Source of the DNA: Dehalococcoidia bacterium | GTDB lineage: Bacteria; Chloroflexota; Dehalococcoidia; GIF9; AB-539-J10 | Assembly (NCBI GenBank): GCA_030602785.1 | Contig: JAUVZB010000001.1 | Coordinates: forward strand, 1 to 63,842 | DNA length: 63,842 nucleotides | Reading direction: 5' to 3' | Part shown: piece after piece, positions 5,699-27,125 of the stretch | How positions within the stretch are numbered: position 1 is the first letter of the stretch | Layout of the letters: each line of letters begins with the position of its first letter | The notes under the pieces: model-generated | Seen by the model: the letters and a program-made list of their open reading frames with translations, nothing else | Told to the model about the DNA's origin: nothing | Databases searched by the model: none | Position numbers and translations under genes: made by a program

Positions 5699-6626
5699 CT
5701 TCACTAGACCCAGGATATTCCGACCGCCCAGCGAATCGATGAGCTACTACCTGCCGCTCACAAGCGGCTGCTCCAATAACACCTGCATCTTCTGCTACTA
5801 CTACGGCTCCAGGCTGCAGATGCGCGACGTCGATGAAGTGAAGCAGGAGATAGACGCCCTGCACCTCTTCAAGACGCAGGGGATCGCCGTACCCGGCATG
5901 GACCGGACCGTCTACGTCCTCGCAAGCCAGTGGGATGGGCGCCGGGTCTTCATCCAGGACGGGGACGCCCTCGTCTATCCGTTCCCGAAGCTGATTGAAA
6001 TCCTCGACTACCTGAACGAGCGCTTCCCTGACCTTGAGCGCATAGCCATCTATGCCACCGCCCAAGACATCCTCAGGAGGAGCGTTGATGAGTTGCGGCA
6101 GCTCAAGGACCGCAAGCTCACTATCCTCTACATCGGGCTGGAGAGCGGCGGCGACCAGATACTCAAGGACATCGGCAAGAACACCAACGCCGAGGAGATG
6201 GTCGCGGCTGCCCAGCGCGTTGAGGAAGCGGGACTCACCCTCTCCGTCATGGTCATACTCGGCCTCGGAGGCGTTGAGCGCAGCAACGAGCACGCGCTTG
6301 CCTCTGCAGACGTGCTCTCCAGGATGGACCCGGAGTACGGAGCCGCTCTCACACTCACCGTTGTCCCGGGCACTCCCTTGCATGACATGATAGAGCGCGG
6401 AGACTTCCATCCCGTCTCCCCTTTCCAGTCTCTCAGAGAACTCAGAACTCTCATCGAGCATCTCCGTGTCACTAACTGCTTCTTCAGCTCGATGCATGCC
6501 TCAAACTACCTGACCATTCGAGGGACGCTGCCGAACGACCGTGTGTCGATGCTCGCGAGGCTGGACCAGGTGATACAGAAGGGCGACGCGAGAGCCCTCA
6601 GGCCGGAAGGGTTCCGGGGACTCTAG
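5691..6626 (+). CDS. radical SAM protein of unknown substrate
   Basis: This 311-residue protein has a cluster-binding motif Cys27-X4-Cys32-X2-Cys35 (CSNNTCIFC), the spacing seen in a family of uncharacterised radical SAM proteins that keep SGCSxNxCxFC. ILYIGLESGGDQILKDIGK supplies the SAM-binding strands typical of Elp3/HemN-like enzymes. The substrate is unknown. ATG 5691 is preferred because GGAG lies nine bases upstream (5678-5681); ATG 5676 has no ribosome binding site. Its start overlaps the end of maf, so it is the third gene of the msrB-maf operon. Confidence 0.85.
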   Translation: MADFTRPRIFRPPSESMSYYLPLTSGCSNNTCIFCYYYGSRLQMRDVDEVKQEIDALHLFKTQGIAVPGMDRTVYVLASQWDGRRVFIQDGDALVYPFPKLIEILDYLNERFPDLERIAIYATAQDILRRSVDELRQLKDRKLTILYIGLESGGDQILKDIGKNTNAEEMVAAAQRVEEAGLTLSVMVILGLGGVERSNEHALASADVLSRMDPEYGAALTLTVVPGTPLHDMIERGDFHPVSPFQSLRELRTLIEHLRVTNCFFSSMHASNYLTIRGTLPNDRVSMLARLDQVIQKGDARALRPEGFRGL

Positions 6627-13668: not shown

Positions 13669-14322
13669 ATGATATTCGTACCGTTGGGCTGCCTTGTTGC
13701 CATCCTGCTGTTCCTATCCATCCCGCTGATACTCGGGCTGTTCTTCCTCAATCTTGTGTCGTTCTCGTTTGGCGAACTCGGTCTGTCGCCGTCGGCGGCC
13801 ATCGCAGTGATAGTCCTTATGTTGATAGGCTCGCTGGTCAACATACCGCTCACACGGCGGCGCGTGGTCTACGAGAGACCGAGCGGCATCCGCGGCCTCT
13901 TCTCAGGGCCACAGACCGGGTACTCAGGTGTGGCCATCAACCTGGGGGGAGCAATCATCCCTATCTGCCTCTGTGCCCATCTCGCCACCATCGTGCCTTC
14001 GCTCTGGGAGATCGGAATTGCGACGGCGATCATGGCGGTAGTTGCGAAGGCTATCGCCAGACCCGTCCCGGGGAGGGGAATCGTCCTGCCCATGTTCGTC
14101 CCGCCAATCCTGTCGGCGTTGCTGGCAATTCTTCTTGCCCGTGAGTTCGCCGCACCATGCGCCTACATCGCAGGCACGATGGGCGTATTGATTGGCGCTG
14201 ACCTCCTGAACCTACACAAGATTCGGAGATTCGAGGGCATGGTTTCAATCGGGGGTGCCGGACTGTTTGACGGCATCTTCCTGGTCGGCATCGTTGCCGT
14301 ATTCCTGACCGCGCTGGTGTAG
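13669..14322 (+). CDS. DUF1614-family multi-spanning membrane protein
   Basis: This 217-residue protein has about six or seven hydrophobic helices, starting with a segment rich in Leu and Ile (VAILLFLSIPLILGLFF). Motifs such as IGSLVNIPLT, AINLGGAIIPI and MGVLIGADLLNL agree with the DUF1614 family, whose function is unknown. ATG 13669 lies eight bases after the ThDP gene stop, with GGAG at 13655-13658, so translation is probably coupled. The last 16 codons are repeated in a remnant 6.5 kb downstream. Confidence 0.82.
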   Translation: MIFVPLGCLVAILLFLSIPLILGLFFLNLVSFSFGELGLSPSAAIAVIVLMLIGSLVNIPLTRRRVVYERPSGIRGLFSGPQTGYSGVAINLGGAIIPICLCAHLATIVPSLWEIGIATAIMAVVAKAIARPVPGRGIVLPMFVPPILSALLAILLAREFAAPCAYIAGTMGVLIGADLLNLHKIRRFEGMVSIGGAGLFDGIFLVGIVAVFLTALV

Positions 14323-14502
14323 CGTGGCCTGGCACCCGGGGACAACCCGGTATGCCGTGTGATAGAGGACGCGTCACCATGCAGCACTGGAGAGTCGAGG
14401 ATGCCCGCAGAGCTCGCCTGCCACCCTACGCGCTGTTCATCTCGTAGCGGACGATTTCCTCGAGCCTCTTCCGTGACTTCGCACCGCCGAACTGCCGTGG
14501 GA
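14271..14502. repeat. diverged direct repeat, left copy
   Basis: This segment aligns with 20766-21001 in the same orientation. It covers the 3' end of the DUF1614 gene, a diverged spacer, and the last codons of a nitroreductase gene. The two copies enclose the 1856-residue gene. The coding ends are well conserved and the spacer much less so, meaning the duplication is old. Confidence 0.75.
14426..14502 (-). pseudogene. 3' remnant of a nitroreductase gene
   Basis: The minus strand reads FGGAKSRKRLEEIVRYEMNSA then stop. The intact nitroreductase at 20922-21440 ends SGGAKSRKRLEQIVRYETDSA. Only about 21 codons remain and the rest of the gene is absent, so this is a truncated duplicate created with the flanking direct repeat. 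Confidence 0.8.
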
Positions 14503-14576
14503 AAAAGAGAGAAGTCTCAGATTCAAGACGCTCCTGTTCTGGGAGAGCAGGCTAGGTGCTGACGGCAGGATTCCTG

Positions 14577-17500
14577 CTAAGTCAGTGTGTCCGGCTCGTA
14601 GGTTGAGTTATACCTCGACCCAAGCCACAGACACTGGCTATTTCTTACCATGGCTACAAGAGGGTCAAGAAAGCCCTCCCTGACTATCGTTCGCAGCACT
14701 TCATGCCGGGAGATGAACTCAGCTATTGGTGGACTGCATTGATAGTATAGGGACACGAAATCAGCACCCAGTTTGCTGGGTAGCAGAACTTCATCCCTGA
14801 AGTCTCGCAGAATATCGATCTCCTGGGCTGTGGGTGTGCCATAGGCTGCTGTAGCAATGAAGCAAGCTGATAGAGCGCGGAAGTCCCATGTTGGCCCTTC
14901 GCTCGTTAGTCCATGGTTGTCTCTAGCTATCACCTTCCAGTGATAGTCGGTATTCTCCTGTATGCTTGGTGCATAGGTAGTATCTGATTGAGATTCCGAA
15001 ACCAGCGGCGGGTCTTCCGCCATACCGAAGTAAACGTCGTAGGTCACTGTATCTTCACCATCGGGGTCTCCTCCACTCCATTCGAGAACTACGCTCTCGG
15101 GAGCAACGTATGTGTCATCGCCGGGTGAAGGATTGCTTGGTGTGTTTGGTGGCGCTGTAACGATGGTCTCCTCAAACTCACCATCGGCATTCGAATCGAC
15201 ATTGATTGTGACGGCTTGTCCGCCTTGGGTGAGAGCACTCCAGTCGACCAAGTACTGATGTCTCACGTCCGCAGCGATGGGCACGCGCGTGACCCGTAAG
15301 GGAGTGCTGTCACCATGCTCCACGCACATGACCCCGAGACCATAGTCACCATCGCATGCCCCGACCACTTCGTACTCACTTGGTGGAACGCTTGGTGCAA
15401 AAACGATGACGGTCTCCAGTTCGTCGTCGTACACGGAACCCGGGATTTCCTCCAGCGTGTCACCATCCACAACCCCCGTCATTCGGCCCTCAGTATCGTG
15501 CACTGTGATACCGCCGGGGCTATGCATGCGGACTATATGAACATGCTCGATAAGCGATTCTGGGTCGGCTAGACTGTTGGCAGGGGGAAACTCGAAGTCA
15601 TTCCACACCGGAAGGGTTGAGCAGGCATTCTCCTCCCATTTCAATGTGAACCTATCACGCCATTCACCCACGGCAATAATCATGCCCCCTCGGTGAGAGG
15701 TCTCCTGCAAATAGAGGTTGACAATCACCCTATCTTCGGGCGGCCGGAGCCAGACAACCTCCATCCTTCCTAGGCCAGGCACAGCCACTGTGACAGAACC
15801 CATGTCTCCTAGCGTCTTCTGCTCGCCCAATTGGAGTCCGAGCATCTCTGCGCCTTCTGCAAGTACGTCGAACCACTGCCCAACCAACGTTACCCACTGC
15901 AATCCTGGAACCACTAGCCCAATTCGGATGAGTCCCGCTTGAGTGACTCCCGTCACGAATTCAATGAAGAGTTCATCTTCAAGGGAGAGTGCATTGTCCT
16001 TCACAATATCGGTAGTCACGAGGCGCGGATCCTGCTTGTCGGGGTGGATCTGATTCAAGAGGCGATCTACGGCACTTTGGTCGATTGCATTCTCTTCCCC
16101 CAACAGCCGGAGTCTGGCTTCGTCAATATCAAGTGCCAATCGGATTACTTCATATATGCGTTCCATGTCATCGTCGCTCATGTTCGCTGTGTCTAGTCGG
16201 GGGGTACCGCGAGATGGCATGGTGAACCATCCCCCTTGCAGAGTGGGGAGGGGGAGCACCTTCATTGTTGAGTCGTGGTTGCCGTCATCGTCAGTGACGG
16301 TCATGGTAGCGACATAGTCATATGGAGTCGAGTAGCTGTGGTTCACCTGAATACCCGAACCTGTGCAGCCATCTCCGAAATCCCATTGGTACGATACTAA
16401 CTGTCCATCTGGGTCGTGTGACAGCGCGGCGCTGAAGGCAACCTCTTGCGAAAGGCCTGGGTTGTCTGGAGAATGATCAAATGATGCAACGGGCGAGGGA
16501 ATGACAACAACCACGCTGCCATCCCATCCGGACGAGTCTTCCCAGCCCCACATGGCAGTGTCAAAATCGGCGCTATCATATCGAATGCCGTGCCCATACG
16601 CCGTGCCTGGATCATTACACACTACATAGCCGTCTTCGAAGCCCGTTGCAACAAGCCAGTGTCCGTTCTCCGAGTAATCTCTCTCAATTGGTTGCCAGCT
16701 AGGAGTCTCGGAGTCCTCCCAGTAGTAGCCATTCAGCACTCCCGCAACAGCCACAATAACTGGGTGACCTCTTGCCAGTTCCAGCTCGACCTGGTCTAGG
16801 GTCCAGCCGTTGGCAGCTTGACTATATGGCCATTGTGCATACTCCCGAGCAAGGGTTTCCAGCCTTGTGCGATCCGTGTACCAGCCGTTGTAGTCATTGA
16901 TGGGGTCGCCGAACCTGCTGTTGAGCCATTCATCAATGGCAATAATGCCTTCCACCTCTGGGCTCGTGTTGTCCCAGTACGAGAAGATCATCAGAGACGA
17001 GGCCTGTCCACAGTTCATCGACTCGCTGAACGCCGTCCCTGGCGGATACTGCGTTAAGAATGGGACATCCAAAGCAATAGGTTCGACCCCAACCGACCAA
17101 CTCACGCTGGCCAGCAAGATGTCATCAATGAAGAGATCAGCTGAAAAATCGCCGCCCGCCCCGAAAATATCAGAGTGTCTGAGCGTCCATGTGCCCGTAC
17201 CCGATTCATGTTCAGTCGTGTGTTCTGCCACCCCCTTCTGATTGTGTTCACCGTCATACCAGATTATCTTCTGGACTGAGCCTGCCAAGTTGTCATAGTC
17301 ATAGTTAACACATACCGATTCGGTCCCTGCCGGGAATTCGCTTATCTCGGGGCCACGTACGGTAGCGCTTGTCCATGCCTGGGTGATAGACGGGCGTAGG
17401 TCAAGGCATAACCCCGCAATGTCAGAAGTGATGTTGTTCACGCAATGCCGTCTTGGGTAAGAGTCATCGAACTCAAAGACATCATCACCATCTTCATCGT

Positions 17501-20147
17501 ATCCAACCCTTAGTATGACATCTGGACCGTAGGCCTGAATTGAGAAGGTGCCGCTTGAATCAGTTACAGAGCGCGTCCCCCAGTTTGCATTGGAAAGCTG
17601 GACGACAATGCCCTCAACGGGCACGCTGTCTGCACAAACCGTTCCCGAGAGAGTGTGTCTGGTAAGAGACCCGTGCTCAACATACTCATAGAGGACGCTG
17701 TCTCCGTTGGCCCGATCAAAGACCAGTTCTACTATTCCGACATCTCTAGCCAGTACGAAGTATCCGACGCCCCTCAAGTAGTCGGCTGTGTTCGAAGAAT
17801 CGTCTATGGCTACCCTTATGCAATCACCGAAATAGGCTCCGTTGACTGTGTAGGCCCCGATATGTTCTACGCCGTGCTCCCGATTGCCGATTGTCCAGGC
17901 ATCTCCGGAATCAAAGAAGCGAGGTAAGCTGAAGTTCAGGTAGAAATTCGCCTGGTTTCCGGAGGGGAATCCAGCATACAGTAGAGTCAAGTTCTTCCCG
18001 TCCACGTTGCGTGAGACTTCGCCGCCCAAAGAGGAATTGCGGAAGTAGCCCCCCTCTTCTCCGCTCTTCACGAGTGTGAAGACGAAGTCTATGTCGTGTG
18101 GCTTGCCACTCTCTGCATACTGGGAGGCCGCCCAAACGTTGCAGTCCAGGCTGTTGTAGTCATCCGTAACGTGATACTTGATTCCGTGTCCTTCCGATAT
18201 CTTGAAATAGTCCAGGCTCTCATGACTTGGGGTGAAGTTGCCGTCGCTGTCCAGTTTGGCGGCAAAGGCATCACCATCCCCTGCATGTGCCCGCACCGGA
18301 TTGCCCCAGGTGGCACTGCTGTCTCCACTGATATAGACGTTCCCGTCGCCGTTCACCGCGACTCCATAACCTGATTCATGACTACTGCTGCCGAGAAAGG
18401 TATGCCATGTGAGGTTGCCACTGCTGTCGAGTTTGGCTGCAAAGGCATCTTCATCTCCCGCATATGCCCGCACCGGAGAACCCCAGGCAGCAAGGCTGAG
18501 TCCACTGACATAGACGTTCCCGCTGCCGTCCACCGCGATGGCGCGGCCGTAGTCACCACCACTGCCGCCGAGGAAGGTATTCCAGGTGAGGGTGCCGTCG
18601 GCGCCGAGTTTGGCGGCAAAGGCATCGGCATCTCCCGCATATGCTCGCACCGGAGAACCCCAGGTGGCTTGGCTGTATCCACCCACATAGACGTTTCCGC
18701 AGCCGTCCACCGCGACTCCAAAACCTAATTCATGACTACTGCTGCCGAGAAAGGTATTCCAGGTGAGGTTGCCGCCGCTGTTGAGTTTGACCACAAAGGC
18801 ATCATTACCTCCCGTATATGCCCGCACCGGAGAGCCCCAGGTAGCAAGGCTGCATCCAGTCACATAAACGTTCCCGCTGGCATCGACCGCGATGGCATGA
18901 CCTGATTCAAACCTACTGCTGCCGAGAAAGGTATTCCAGGTGAGGCTGCCGTCGGCGCCGAGTCTGGCGGCAAAGGCATCGGCTTCTCCCGCATAAGCCC
19001 GCACCGGAGAGTCCCAGGTGGCCCAGCTCTCTCCAGTCACATAAACGTTCCCGTCGCCGTCCACCGCGACTCCATAACCTGATTCATGACTACTGCTGCC
19101 GAGAAAGGTATGCCAGGTGAGGTTGCCACTGCTGTCGAGTTTGGCGGCAAAGGCATCTTCATCTCCCGCATAAGCCCGCACCGGAGAGTCCCAGGTGGCC
19201 CAACTCTCTCCTGTCACATAAACGTTCCCGCTGCCGTCCACCGCGATGGCATGGCCACGGTCAAGCCCACTGCCGCCAAGGAAAGTATTCCAGGTGAGAT
19301 TGCCGTCGCTGTCGAGTTTGGCGGCAAAGGCATCGGCATCTCCCGTATATGCCCGCACCGGATTGCCCCAGGTGGCCCAGCTCTCTCCTGTCACATAAAC
19401 GTTCCCGCTGCCGTCTACCGCGATGGCATAGCCGCCGTTACCTCCACTGCCGCCGAGGAAGGTATTCCAGGTCAACGACGGGTCAATAATCACCGGGACA
19501 CCGGGCACATAATCGCCCAGGGAAAACCCTACCTCGCGTTCACCATAGAGGGCGTAGGCGGCTGCTACCGGTCTTCTTTCGCCTTCTATCTCCTGCCAGG
19601 CTACGGGAGCGCTCTCCACCATTGTCCCGTTCTCGTAGGCAACAACGAGATTGCCGTTCTCGTCAATGCTTACGGGACGGTTGTATCCCAGGCGGATGCG
19701 GTCAACGGGGACTCCCACTTCTGTGGCGCTGACGTAGTAGGTGCTCTTCAGGATGACGCCTTCGTTGGCTTCGTAAATCACCGTGACATCATCCCAGATG
19801 TTGTCATACGTTACTCGGCTGAGGGGAGCCGCGCCGTCACCCGCTTCTCCCGAACTACTCTGGTCCGCTTCGGGAGCAACTGCGTTGGCATTGACAAATT
19901 CAGTTTTCAGCATATGGCTGGCTGAAGCCAAAATGACGCCATCTCTGCTGAAGCCGAGCACGTGGCCGACAGAGCTGAACTGGAGAAGATTGTCCCCGTC
20001 AGCTGTTTCACCAGGATTAGAGGTTTCGACCTGTGTTCCGCTGTCCGCTGCGGCGCTATTGCTGACGCCGGTCGTCGCGAGACCTCCCAGCAACAACCCC
20101 ACGATGAGGATACCTCGCACAGCAGTTTGCATCATTCCTCTCTTCAC
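14577..20147 (-). CDS. giant secreted SBBP/C39-peptidase/PKD/CFI-box protein
   Basis: This 1856-residue exported protein starts with a signal peptide (1-35), then a DUF7948-like domain (about 45-222) and seven SBBP beta-propeller repeats of 59 residues (225-637). A peptidase-regulatory-like domain lies near 800-870. A C39-type cysteine peptidase domain follows (about 1020-1200) with MNCGQAS (Cys near 1046), GHWLVATGF and CNDPG. Then come a PKD domain (1215-1300), an Fn3-like domain (1655-1745) and a C-terminal CFI-box (CFIATAAYGTP, about 1760). The CFI-box C-terminus is shared by surface proteins of several phyla and probably directs processing or anchoring. Start GTG 20147 follows GAAGGTGG; ATG 20135 is possible. 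Substrate unknown. Confidence 0.88.
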   Translation of the reverse strand: MKRGMMQTAVRGILIVGLLLGGLATTGVSNSAAADSGTQVETSNPGETADGDNLLQFSSVGHVLGFSRDGVILASASHMLKTEFVNANAVAPEADQSSSGEAGDGAAPLSRVTYDNIWDDVTVIYEANEGVILKSTYYVSATEVGVPVDRIRLGYNRPVSIDENGNLVVAYENGTMVESAPVAWQEIEGERRPVAAAYALYGEREVGFSLGDYVPGVPVIIDPSLTWNTFLGGSGGNGGYAIAVDGSGNVYVTGESWATWGNPVRAYTGDADAFAAKLDSDGNLTWNTFLGGSGLDRGHAIAVDGSGNVYVTGESWATWDSPVRAYAGDEDAFAAKLDSSGNLTWHTFLGSSSHESGYGVAVDGDGNVYVTGESWATWDSPVRAYAGEADAFAARLGADGSLTWNTFLGSSRFESGHAIAVDASGNVYVTGCSLATWGSPVRAYTGGNDAFVVKLNSGGNLTWNTFLGSSSHELGFGVAVDGCGNVYVGGYSQATWGSPVRAYAGDADAFAAKLGADGTLTWNTFLGGSGGDYGRAIAVDGSGNVYVSGLSLAAWGSPVRAYAGDEDAFAAKLDSSGNLTWHTFLGSSSHESGYGVAVNGDGNVYISGDSSATWGNPVRAHAGDGDAFAAKLDSDGNFTPSHESLDYFKISEGHGIKYHVTDDYNSLDCNVWAASQYAESGKPHDIDFVFTLVKSGEEGGYFRNSSLGGEVSRNVDGKNLTLLYAGFPSGNQANFYLNFSLPRFFDSGDAWTIGNREHGVEHIGAYTVNGAYFGDCIRVAIDDSSNTADYLRGVGYFVLARDVGIVELVFDRANGDSVLYEYVEHGSLTRHTLSGTVCADSVPVEGIVVQLSNANWGTRSVTDSSGTFSIQAYGPDVILRVGYDEDGDDVFEFDDSYPRRHCVNNITSDIAGLCLDLRPSITQAWTSATVRGPEISEFPAGTESVCVNYDYDNLAGSVQKIIWYDGEHNQKGVAEHTTEHESGTGTWTLRHSDIFGAGGDFSADLFIDDILLASVSWSVGVEPIALDVPFLTQYPPGTAFSESMNCGQASSLMIFSYWDNTSPEVEGIIAIDEWLNSRFGDPINDYNGWYTDRTRLETLAREYAQWPYSQAANGWTLDQVELELARGHPVIVAVAGVLNGYYWEDSETPSWQPIERDYSENGHWLVATGFEDGYVVCNDPGTAYGHGIRYDSADFDTAMWGWEDSSGWDGSVVVVIPSPVASFDHSPDNPGLSQEVAFSAALSHDPDGQLVSYQWDFGDGCTGSGIQVNHSYSTPYDYVATMTVTDDDGNHDSTMKVLPLPTLQGGWFTMPSRGTPRLDTANMSDDDMERIYEVIRLALDIDEARLRLLGEENAIDQSAVDRLLNQIHPDKQDPRLVTTDIVKDNALSLEDELFIEFVTGVTQAGLIRIGLVVPGLQWVTLVGQWFDVLAEGAEMLGLQLGEQKTLGDMGSVTVAVPGLGRMEVVWLRPPEDRVIVNLYLQETSHRGGMIIAVGEWRDRFTLKWEENACSTLPVWNDFEFPPANSLADPESLIEHVHIVRMHSPGGITVHDTEGRMTGVVDGDTLEEIPGSVYDDELETVIVFAPSVPPSEYEVVGACDGDYGLGVMCVEHGDSTPLRVTRVPIAADVRHQYLVDWSALTQGGQAVTINVDSNADGEFEETIVTAPPNTPSNPSPGDDTYVAPESVVLEWSGGDPDGEDTVTYDVYFGMAEDPPLVSESQSDTTYAPSIQENTDYHWKVIARDNHGLTSEGPTWDFRALSACFIATAAYGTPTAQEIDILRDFRDEVLLPSKLGADFVSLYYQCSPPIAEFISRHEVLRTIVREGFLDPLVAMVRNSQCLWLGSRYNSTYEPDTLT
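18237..19475 (-). repeat. seven 177-bp SBBP coding repeats
   Basis: Each unit encodes 59 residues beginning LTWNTFLG or LTWHTFLG and containing VDGSGNVYVTG, PVRAY and DAFAAKL. Units 3 and 7 share LTWHTFLGSSSHESGYGVAV and their preceding units share AGDEDAFAAKLDSSGN, while other pairs differ, so a block of units was duplicated within the array. Confidence 0.9.
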
Positions 20148-20765
20148 AATCCACCTTCCTCGTGTGCCATGGCTACTACTCCATAGAGCCGCTATCCGGG
20201 CCAGCCTCAGGAAACATCTTCGGGGAGCCAGGCTTCGTTTCGCGACACGGCCTCTCTGTTGTCACTGTTGCTTGTGGTTGTCCGCACCTTTCCTTCTCCT
20301 CTTCCGGCGCAGCATCCGCCTTCCTTCCCTCTACAAACCCTCCGTCCGCTTGTGGTTGGGCACCGGCCCGTCTTTTCTCAGCAGTATGTACAGGGGGCGC
20401 CAAACCACTGCCTCTCCTGCGCCAGTTCACGCAACCCCTTCCGCAACACGCCGCGAGCATAGGAGCCTGCACACTCGGCTGCGTTCATCTTCCGGGGGAG
20501 CCGGGGCTACGAGAATTACATGATGCTCGCACACGACTCATGTTGCTGTCAATACCCCAGATTGGGCCAATGCTCCTGGCACTGAGGGTGGTTTGGTCTC
20601 GGGGTTCAGGCTACAGAATGAGGTAGCGTGGCGTCATGAGGCATACTTATTCGTAGGCGTGGCTGGAGCGAGGCGGAAACAGTAGGTGGAAGCAGACGGG
20701 GTCGGTGTGGGTGGGGCAACAATAGATGTGAGAAGCAATCATCGCTGGATGAGTGCGTCACGCGG
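20148..20765. other. long leader upstream of the giant gene, no gene seen
   Basis: This 618-base region lies upstream (minus sense) of the giant gene. No frame carries a convincing start or product, and no known riboswitch motif was recognised. It contains the promoter of the giant gene by position only. Confidence 0.4.
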
Positions 20766-20817
20766 CGGCATCTTCCTGGTTGGCATCGTTGCCGTATTCC
20801 TGACCGCGCTTGTGTAG
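20764..20817 (+). pseudogene. 3' remnant of the DUF1614 gene
   Basis: The plus strand reads GGIFLVGIVAVFLTALV then stop, identical in its last 15 residues to the end of the intact DUF1614 protein at 13669-14322. The DNA is almost identical over this stretch. Nothing upstream of it resembles the rest of the gene. Confidence 0.85.
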
Positions 20818-21001
20818 CGCGACCGGGAGCTTCAGGACGGCTGCCCCGGGGCGCCGCGCGATGGAAGATGCGTCACGATGCGTGCACACGAGCGTCAAAG
20901 GTGCCCGCAGGGCCTATCACCCTACGCGCTGTCCGTCTCGTAGCGGACGATTTGTTCAAGCCTCTTGCGTGACTTCGCACCACCTGACTTGGCCACGGGA
21001 T
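20766..21001. repeat. diverged direct repeat, right copy
   Basis: This is the partner of 14271-14502. It begins in the DUF1614 remnant and ends within the intact nitroreductase gene, whose 3' end it contains. Together the copies flank about 6.3 kb. Confidence 0.75.
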
Positions 21002-21440
21002 AGCCCATGGGGAGAATCGTCAGCACCATGCACGACTTGTCGACGCCGAGAATCTCGCGGACACGCTCCTGCGAAAACGAGCCTATCCAGCATGTCCCGA
21101 GCCCTTCCTGTACGGCAGCAAGTGTCATGTGGTCGACCGCGATGGTGAGGTCTACTGCGTAGCGAGGCACGCCGCAGGTCATGATGGACGCAGGGTCGGT
21201 GGCCACAGCGCCTATGATAACCGGGGCATCCGCTATCCACGTCTGGTTGTTGGCCGCTTCGGCCAATCGTTTCTTGCGAGCCTCATCCCGCACGACGATG
21301 AATCTCCACTCCTGCCGGTTGCTCGAGGATGGGGCAAGCCTGGCAGCTTCCAGGACCCTCAGGAGGGTTTCCTCGGGTATGGCATCAGTCGTGTAGTCTC
21401 TCACGCTGCATCGGGTTCGAATCGCCTCGTGTACATCCAT
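20922..21440 (-). CDS. nitroreductase-family flavoprotein
   Basis: An FMN-dependent NAD(P)H oxidoreductase of 172 residues. It begins MDVHEAIRTRCSVRDYT, has SSSNRQEWRFIVV (FMN phosphate contacts), LAAVQEGLGTCWIGSF and ILPMGYPVAKSGGAKSRK, all typical of the small single-subunit nitroreductase family, which acts as a dimer. ATG 21440 is chosen over upstream in-frame starts because GGAGG lies just before it and homology starts there. The natural substrate is unknown; relatives reduce nitro compounds, quinones or act in cofactor biosynthesis. It is divergent from the DUF362 gene. Confidence 0.88.
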   Translation of the reverse strand: MDVHEAIRTRCSVRDYTTDAIPEETLLRVLEAARLAPSSSNRQEWRFIVVRDEARKKRLAEAANNQTWIADAPVIIGAVATDPASIMTCGVPRYAVDLTIAVDHMTLAAVQEGLGTCWIGSFSQERVREILGVDKSCMVLTILPMGYPVAKSGGAKSRKRLEQIVRYETDSA

Positions 21441-21678
21441 GGACACCTCCAGAACGACAATGGCCCGATTATACAGCCACGGCTGCTCGCCCGCGAATGC
21501 GAAGACCGAACCGCGTAGCGGATGCGCGGCCGGCGATTTGTGGAATGCGAGCAGGCCACGATAGAATCGGCGGACAGGGCCGGACACGGGCTCTCTTTCT
21601 TGCCGCCGCGATTCGCAGGTTCTCCTCATCCCAAGAGGGCCGGGTGAACTCTGAGGCAAGCCCAACCAGGAGGTAGTC

Positions 21679-25619: not shown

Positions 25620-27125
25620 TTTTCCTGTAGGGGCGGACCTCTGCGTCCGCCCGTGAGATGGATGTGGTCAGGGTGCAGTTGCGTGATTTCCGCGTAGGGC
25701 ACGTTACACGTGCCCGTCCGATAGTATGGCGTGGACCGTAGGATGAAATGCCCAGTTTTCCGTAGGGACGGATCTCTGTGTCCACCCACAGGGAGAGGGC
25801 GAAGCGTTGTGATCCCGTGTAGGGGCGCTTCGGGAAGCGCCCGGTGATTGTGTGACGGATAGGGCGGGTATCTTCTGGAGAGCCGACGTAGGTGGTGGCC
25901 GAAAGGCTTCGACGGTAGGATTTTGGCTACAACCGCGGTTTCAGACAACGGCCGGGCCGTTCCCGAACGGCCCCTACATGTCCGCCACACACCGTGTCCC
26001 CCCGGGCAACCGCGGGCTGTTGCCGCGACCTTCATTGACCGCCGGGTCGTTCCCGAACGCCCCCTACATCCGGAACCTCCACCCCGCGCCCACCGGGCAC
26101 GTGCAACGTGCCCCTTGTATCTTGGTGTACAGTCTCCCAACGATGTCGCGGGAGAGGGGAATCAGACGTGCCCCTTAGGCGTTAGAGCCTGTGGTGTAGA
26201 TTCCGATCCCCTCTCCCCGGTGCCAGTCCCAAGGCCGGACGGTATCTTAAGCCTCCCACGTGGAAGAGCTTGCATTGACAAGGTTGGCCTGGGGTGGCCG
26301 CGACATCAGCATCACGGTATCAGAGTAAAGGCTAGCGGAGGTGAAGTCAATGGAACCCACAATTGTGTTAACGGTCTACGATTCTGTCCTCCCCTAAGCG
26401 TTCAGCGAAAATGTCCGCATGCAGGAGAGGCAGGTGACCAGGAGCCCAATCGTAACCGTAGGGGCAACGCATGCGTCGCCCGTCGGGTGGTGAGCCAATC
26501 ATGGTTGTGTTTGCGGACGCTCCCCTGACTGTCGAAGCGCAGGCGCAATGTGCCCTGTACCCGGGAATCAATCGTGATGGCGGCCAACGGTGGCGCGTAT
26601 CAGTGGCGCTACGGGAGAGGCATGCCTCTCCCCTACGAATAGCGCTTCCGCGTCGGCAAATGAGACAGAGGAGGAACAACACGTATCTGTAGGGGCGATG
26701 GCATGCCTCGCCCGTCGGGTGGTGCATCGATCATGGTTGTGGTTACAGACAGGATGAACACGGCGCGTGATGTAGGGACACGTTGCACGTGCCCGGTAGG
26801 TGTGCGGTGGTCCGAATGTAGGGGCAGGCCTCTGCGCCTGCCCGCGGTGGGAGCGAAGGGTGGCTATCTGGGGCGATGCATGCGTCGCCCCGCGGGGTAG
26901 AGTGTCAATCACGACTGTGTTGGCCTATGCTCCGTTGTGTGGCGACGGAGCGACGGGCCAGGCCTGCCTGGCCACTACATACGAAACCACCCCACCACCA
27001 TGTCCCCGCAGGCAAGCGCGGGCTGTTGCCGCGACCTTCATCGGTCGCCGGGTCGTTCCCGAACGCCCCCTACATCCGGAACCACCGTACCACCACGGGC
27101 GGACACGGAGGTCCGCCCCTACATT
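25620..27125. repeat. scattered variable-stem palindromes (about 16)
   Basis: Hairpins with the TGTAGGGG...CCC frame (or its reverse complement) occur near 25627, 25696, 25760, 25818, 25950, 26041, 26095, 26459, 26610, 26691, 26771, 26818, 26870, 26955, 27050 and 27100. The stems come in at least seven types: GCAGGCC..., CGAGGCATGCCTCG, CGGACCTC..., CGCTTCGGGAAGCG, CCGTTCCCGAACGG, CACGTTGCACGTG and CGATGCATGCGTCG. Both orientations are present. Between hairpins the sequence is mostly unrelated. Confidence 0.85.
26377..26421 (+). repeat. 45-bp remnant of a possible IS21-like terminal repeat
   Basis: The segment matches 55084-55128 at 42 of 45 positions and contains GTTCAGCGAAAATGTCCGC, a sequence like the multiple terminal repeats of IS21-type elements. 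No transposase is present. Both copies sit beside palindrome clusters. Confidence 0.4.

Follow-up and report, generated by a model that had tools for sequence, protein, structure and literature searches.

In Neisseria, minimal mobile elements place differing gene cassettes between conserved neighbours. The cassettes are swapped by homologous recombination, by means of a double crossover within the genes on either side, and the exchange is not known to involve duplicated junctions like those at the locus described here. The elements are named in, among others, PMC3082526. In Dehalococcoides, ssrA-specific genomic islands lie between duplicate copies of a gene's 3' end, with several islands in tandem per site (PMC3146451), and region B of wine yeast has moved as an extrachromosomal circle, of which circular permutation between insertion sites is taken as the signature (PMC3053389). 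The present locus lies in a stretch of 63,842 nt (hereafter the window; GCA_030602785.1, contig JAUVZB010000001.1, forward strand, positions 1-63,842) from Dehalococcoidia bacterium G000, the assembly of which comprises 2.57 Mb in 141 contigs. It was compared with six congeners (G001-G006; seven genomes in all), and G006 is a metagenome-assembled genome (MAG) of a sister species (DUF1614 contig, Dehalococcoidia MAG CSMAG_1233) with 95% identity to G000 in DUF1614 DNA. All inferences are drawn from fragmented metagenome assemblies, one of which provides the third repeat copy discussed below.

A direct repeat (R) brackets a gene of 1856 codons (W) in the window (Table 1). The original observation of a repeat of about 230 bp is borne out by a direct-repeat search and alignment, which give about 226 bp per copy, about 80% identity between the two copies and 6269 bp between them. 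Three sub-blocks (14271-14332/20766-20827, 92%; 14384-14413/20884-20913, 77%; 14416-14493/20912-20989, 86%) are in register at a spacing of 6495-6500 and together align as a single repeat. When R-right was searched against the whole G000 assembly, R-left was matched at E = 2e-46, placing the repeat far beyond chance, and no further full copy besides R-left was found. R is a real, old and non-random feature. Searches among plasmids and phages yielded no match to R, Rfam gave none for R or the leader of W, and R-like flanking repeats were absent around other giant-gene loci (G004 C58, C37, C73 and C48; G000 C78, C117 and C141).

Each copy of R spans two gene ends, and the intergenic DNA of R-right is the counterpart of that in R-left. 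By tblastn, the nitroreductase tail in the insert-side DNA is found at 14488-14429 (85% over 20 aa, E 8e-7) and the DUF1614 tail at 20767-20814 (16/16 identical, E 3e-5); the latter has the 16 codons first noted, and the nitroreductase tail, put at 21 codons, consists of 20 plus the stop. Outside the tails, the insert has no detectable sequence of either gene, and shuffle tests were not significant. One candidate, nitroreductase homology reaching past R-left, was plausible by eye and failed the shuffle tests.

Table 1. Features of the repeat-bracketed locus (window coordinates).
Feature	Position	Strand	Content or basis
DUF1614 gene, intact, left neighbour	13669..14322	+	Pfam PF07758, E 5e-46; orthologs adjoin nitroreductase in 4 congeners
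R-left	14271..14496		final ~50 bp of DUF1614, then ~105 bp of intergenic DNA and the nitroreductase remnant
Nitroreductase remnant, 20 codons + stop	14426..14488	-	tblastn
3' flank of W	14497..14576	-	common to second locus of sister species; alignment with G006 C171
Giant gene W, 1856 aa	14577..20147	-	DUF7948, SBBP beta-propeller repeats, PKD, CFI-box-CTERM
Leader, ~415 bp	20148..20562	-	homologous to giantA leader at second locus; starts at GGGTATTGACAG
'u', 200 bp	20563..20765		same sequence after R at second locus, before giantB
R-right	20766..20993		DUF1614 remnant, then intergenic DNA and the end of the intact nitroreductase gene
DUF1614 remnant, 16 codons + stop	20767..20817	+	tblastn
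Nitroreductase gene, intact, right neighbour	20922..21467	-	Pfam PF00881, E 6e-30; orthologs in congeners

The segment between the copies holds the giant open reading frame (ORF) and about 0.6 kb of upstream DNA as its sole content. The C-terminal domain of W scores 89.6 bits against NF041770 (CFI-box-CTERM; cut-off 40), a term, 'CFI-box', that was not found in the literature searched, and its domains together with a signal-peptide-like N-terminus suggest that the protein is surface-exposed. Six tandem units of 177 bp (18231-19415; 77-86% identical) encode its SBBP beta-propeller repeats. The leader is 76% identical to its counterparts in G000 C78 and G006 C33; it is kept upstream of paralogous giant genes, with TTGACA as its first bases, and may be a long 5' UTR that acts in regulation. 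The adjoining 'u' matches G006 C171 3839-4033 (71%, E 2e-20, about 195 bp) and is absent from the five other congeners. Elsewhere in the window (25923-26528) and in other intergenic DNA (L041 at about 3300, L039 at about 14800), translated strings like GLRFCPPLSVQRKCPHAG recur, which suggests a dispersed family of short repeats.

An element moved by a site-specific recombinase would hold an integrase or transposase, and the giant ORF stands alone: the ORF list and domain and family searches revealed no recombinase, transposase, integrase or phage gene in the insert. A transposon would have left a short duplication of fixed length and terminal inverted repeats; here the repeat is about 226 bp long, the insertion at the second locus lacks a long duplication and the repeat search reported no inverted pair at the insert ends. 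The relatives expected of a phage or plasmid insertion were not found either for R, among plasmids and phages, or for the C-terminus of W, among viral contigs.

The site occupied by W in the window (locus 1) is empty in four congeners. DUF1614 orthologs are present in five of the six, and in G001, G003, G004 and G005 the DUF1614 and nitroreductase genes are convergent and adjacent, with roughly 17-67 bp between their stop codons and neither giant gene nor repeat at the junction. The single junction with adjoining gene ends, foreseen for relatives without the giant gene, is therefore found in these four, and the view that the two genes were once convergent neighbours is upheld. In G004 the run amidohydrolase, TPP enzyme, DUF1614, nitroreductase, 4Fe-4S/DUF362-like protein, SDR, PKD protein is colinear with the window except for the giant gene. 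On G002 C95 (L047 2-1261), DUF1614 is missing and the TPP enzyme and nitroreductase genes are themselves convergent and adjacent.

In the sister species, locus 1 has turned over again, because DUF1614 there directly abuts the 3' end of a different giant gene without a left R. DNA related to this other C-terminus occurs in giants of G004 and G006, and none was found in G000. Contig C150 of G006 (L038 1-1154) shows a W-like giant beside DUF1614 with another C-terminus and with neither CFI-box nor R, a C-terminal swap at locus 1. This qualifies the refuting condition first set for the proposed history, a relative with both genes and the giant gene but no repeat: the left R is lacking in G006, and the nitroreductase region of G006 is unassembled, so that locus 1 is only partly comparable between G006 and G000.

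Full copies of R occur in only three places in the seven genomes, two of them in the window. The third lies on G006 C171 (3612-3846), between the 3' end of one giant gene (giantA) and the upstream region of another (giantB). On its nitroreductase side it runs into the type of 3' flank that adjoins the left copy in the window, and on its DUF1614 side into 'u', the sequence beyond the right copy, so that its flanks are element-type on both sides. The three flank combinations are each as predicted: nitroreductase and 'u', and 3' flank and DUF1614, in the window, and 3' flank and 'u' in G006. The same sequence with element flanks on both sides, as expected of a donor or circle junction, is therefore present, in one assembly; the G000 counterpart of this single MAG contig would fall in an assembly gap.

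At this second locus (locus 2), the G006 genes after giantB encode a CFI-box protein, a PKD protein, a universal stress protein (USP) and an iron-containing alcohol dehydrogenase (ADH). G000 C117 starts inside giantB and carries the same downstream genes, and G000 C78 carries an old-yellow-enzyme-like (OYE) gene followed by giantA, within which the contig ends; these ends are consistent with G000 having the G006 order, in which case the gap between C78 and C117 would hold the R region. On G006 C33 (L042 1897-2856), an ORF that by eye resembles an ISL3-type transposase lies between the oxidoreductase and giantA, and is absent in G000. In G001, G002, G004 and G005 the OYE oxidoreductase lies close to the (PKD)-USP-ADH genes without giants, and the PKD gene is already present in G004. 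Because OYE and ADH lie close together without giants in congeners, locus 2 is an insertion too. A target duplication was sought there and not found; the G004 OYE-PKD spacer splits between both flanks.

On the minus strand, locus 1 runs nitroreductase, R, 'u', leader, W, 3' flank, R, DUF1614, and locus 2 runs leader, giantA, 3' flank, R, 'u', giantB. At both, R is followed by 'u', and the order of parts in the locus-1 insert is that of the locus-2 block, circularly permuted. The homology between the leaders of W and giantA begins at the same GGGTATTGACAG in both, a boundary that could reflect promoter conservation rather than a breakpoint. Together with the empty site, the permuted order is as expected from a circle integrating by one crossover in R, and R-left and R-right flank the insert as direct repeats of the same shared sequence, as in a Campbell-type integrant. 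Our preferred reading, to which we give about an even chance of being correct, is that R is a duplicated gene junction made by such an event. A circle carrying leader, giant gene, 3' flank, R and 'u' would have used its R to recombine with the corresponding nitroreductase-DUF1614 junction of the chromosome, so that one R was left on each side. The crossover, presumably RecA-dependent, was probably ordinary homologous recombination, because the insert encodes no recombinase. The circle may have moved in either direction, from locus 2 to 1 or from 1 to 2, and the paralogs may later have exchanged 3' ends by gene conversion.

The sequences suggest when this took place. The leaders of giantA are 84.5% identical between the G000 and G006 orthologs, and because the R copies (80-83%) and the W and giantA leaders (76%) fall below this value, the duplications predate the G000-G006 split by a modest margin. 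R is a duplicate of the nitroreductase-DUF1614 junction, as first proposed, and older than that split. W and G006 giantA agree at their 3' ends to about 98% across about 280 bp and are 75-85% identical outside this stretch, a sign of later gene conversion or recombination between the two loci.

Several observations count against integration of a circle. Junction capture by locus 2, or opening of the circle between 'u' and the leader, needs an extra non-homologous step, and R is absent from the DUF1614 side in G006. In the G006 copy of R, the nitroreductase-proximal half is closer to R-right and the DUF1614-proximal half to R-left (a post hoc split, with an indicative p of about 0.001-0.02). 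The allele switch that this suggests is the reverse of the one predicted had the R of the circle diverged beforehand, and would fit only if all copies were still nearly alike when the circle integrated and the halves lying off the intact genes diverged afterwards.

The possibility that a giant block was ligated in one step into a widely staggered break at the junction, with fill-in of overhangs giving a target duplication of about 226 bp, is doubtful, although insert and repeat share their edges, without DUF1614 or nitroreductase sequence beyond, and the identity of R as locus-1 sequence is accounted for without a prior capture step. A later crossover between the R copies would then have freed a circle that seeded locus 2, so that a circle and a non-homologous insertion are still required. 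Moreover, the insert has no transposase or integrase, and the insertion at locus 2, which arose in the same stem lineage, left no long duplication, the G004 spacer being split between its flanks. The third R and the permuted order favour a recombination product, from a circle and single crossover, over the long target duplication that had been offered beside it and that is less economical. More doubtful again is tandem amplification, in which unequal crossing-over between R copies built an array of R, 'u', giant and 3' flank at the junction, a piece moved to locus 2 and the array shrank to one unit. The giantA-R-giantB arrangement does resemble an internal array joint, and the different giant 3' end at locus 1 of G006 looks as if several genes once stood there; however, the leader and N-terminus of giantB are both unlike those of W and giantA, none of the genomes has an array at locus 1 and the first duplication of R is left unexplained.

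Tandem duplication of a larger nitroreductase-DUF1614 segment, the middle of which was later replaced by the giant, would leave the same gene-end remnants in the window. It is disfavoured and very unlikely, as residual gene sequence is absent beyond the repeat on both sides, and R with 'u' at locus 2 is not predicted. Least probable of all is an artefact of misjoined metagenome reads. The assemblies are fragmented, with 141 contigs in G000 and contigs that end in giant genes, but the R copies differ at 20% of positions, above the coding divergence of the sister species (DUF1614 DNA, 95% identical), and the flanks agree across two assemblies.

If a circle did integrate by one crossover, it would show a way for a 5.6-kb surface-protein gene to spread between loci without a recombinase of its own, and a testable route for the multiplication and diversification of large, repeat-rich genes. 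The unoccupied site, the two hybrid junctions and the element-type junction, all kept within one uncultured genus, make an unusually complete fossil of gene movement. It is unlikely, though conceivable, that the giant surface-protein genes of the genus form a recombinase-free cassette system with the duplicated junction as attachment site. In such a system, homologous recombination would release circles of one giant each and return them to the chromosome at several loci, and the surface repertoire would be reshuffled.

The mechanism is of a known kind. What is unusual is that it works through a gene junction and without an integrase, and that the set of junctions has been preserved. As in Campbell-type integration of circular DNA, there is an empty target, two hybrid junctions each with the full shared sequence, and elsewhere a circle-type junction with permuted order. 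Unlike that model, the present case is a natural and old one from an uncultured lineage, its shared sequence is the junction of two chromosomal genes, and no replicon or recombinase was seen. The differing cassettes between conserved neighbours recall the minimal mobile elements of Neisseria. The insert and the ssrA-specific islands of Dehalococcoides belong to the same class, but those islands have a 20-bp repeat and a serine recombinase module, whereas here about 226 bp over two gene ends are repeated without a recombinase (PMC3146451). Circular permutation between sites is read as the mark of a circular intermediate here as in yeast region B, whose insertions are, in contrast, considered non-homologous, the breakpoints showing little if any similarity (PMC3053389). 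The outcome is similar for the CDI megacircle of Burkholderia thailandensis (PMC6350997), in which a circle with one repeat integrates beside an existing repeat and recreates the bracketed segment, and the translocatable units of IS26, which enter beside an existing repeat and re-form the segment in the same way; in both, the repeats are insertion sequences with an active transposase, whereas R is not an insertion sequence.
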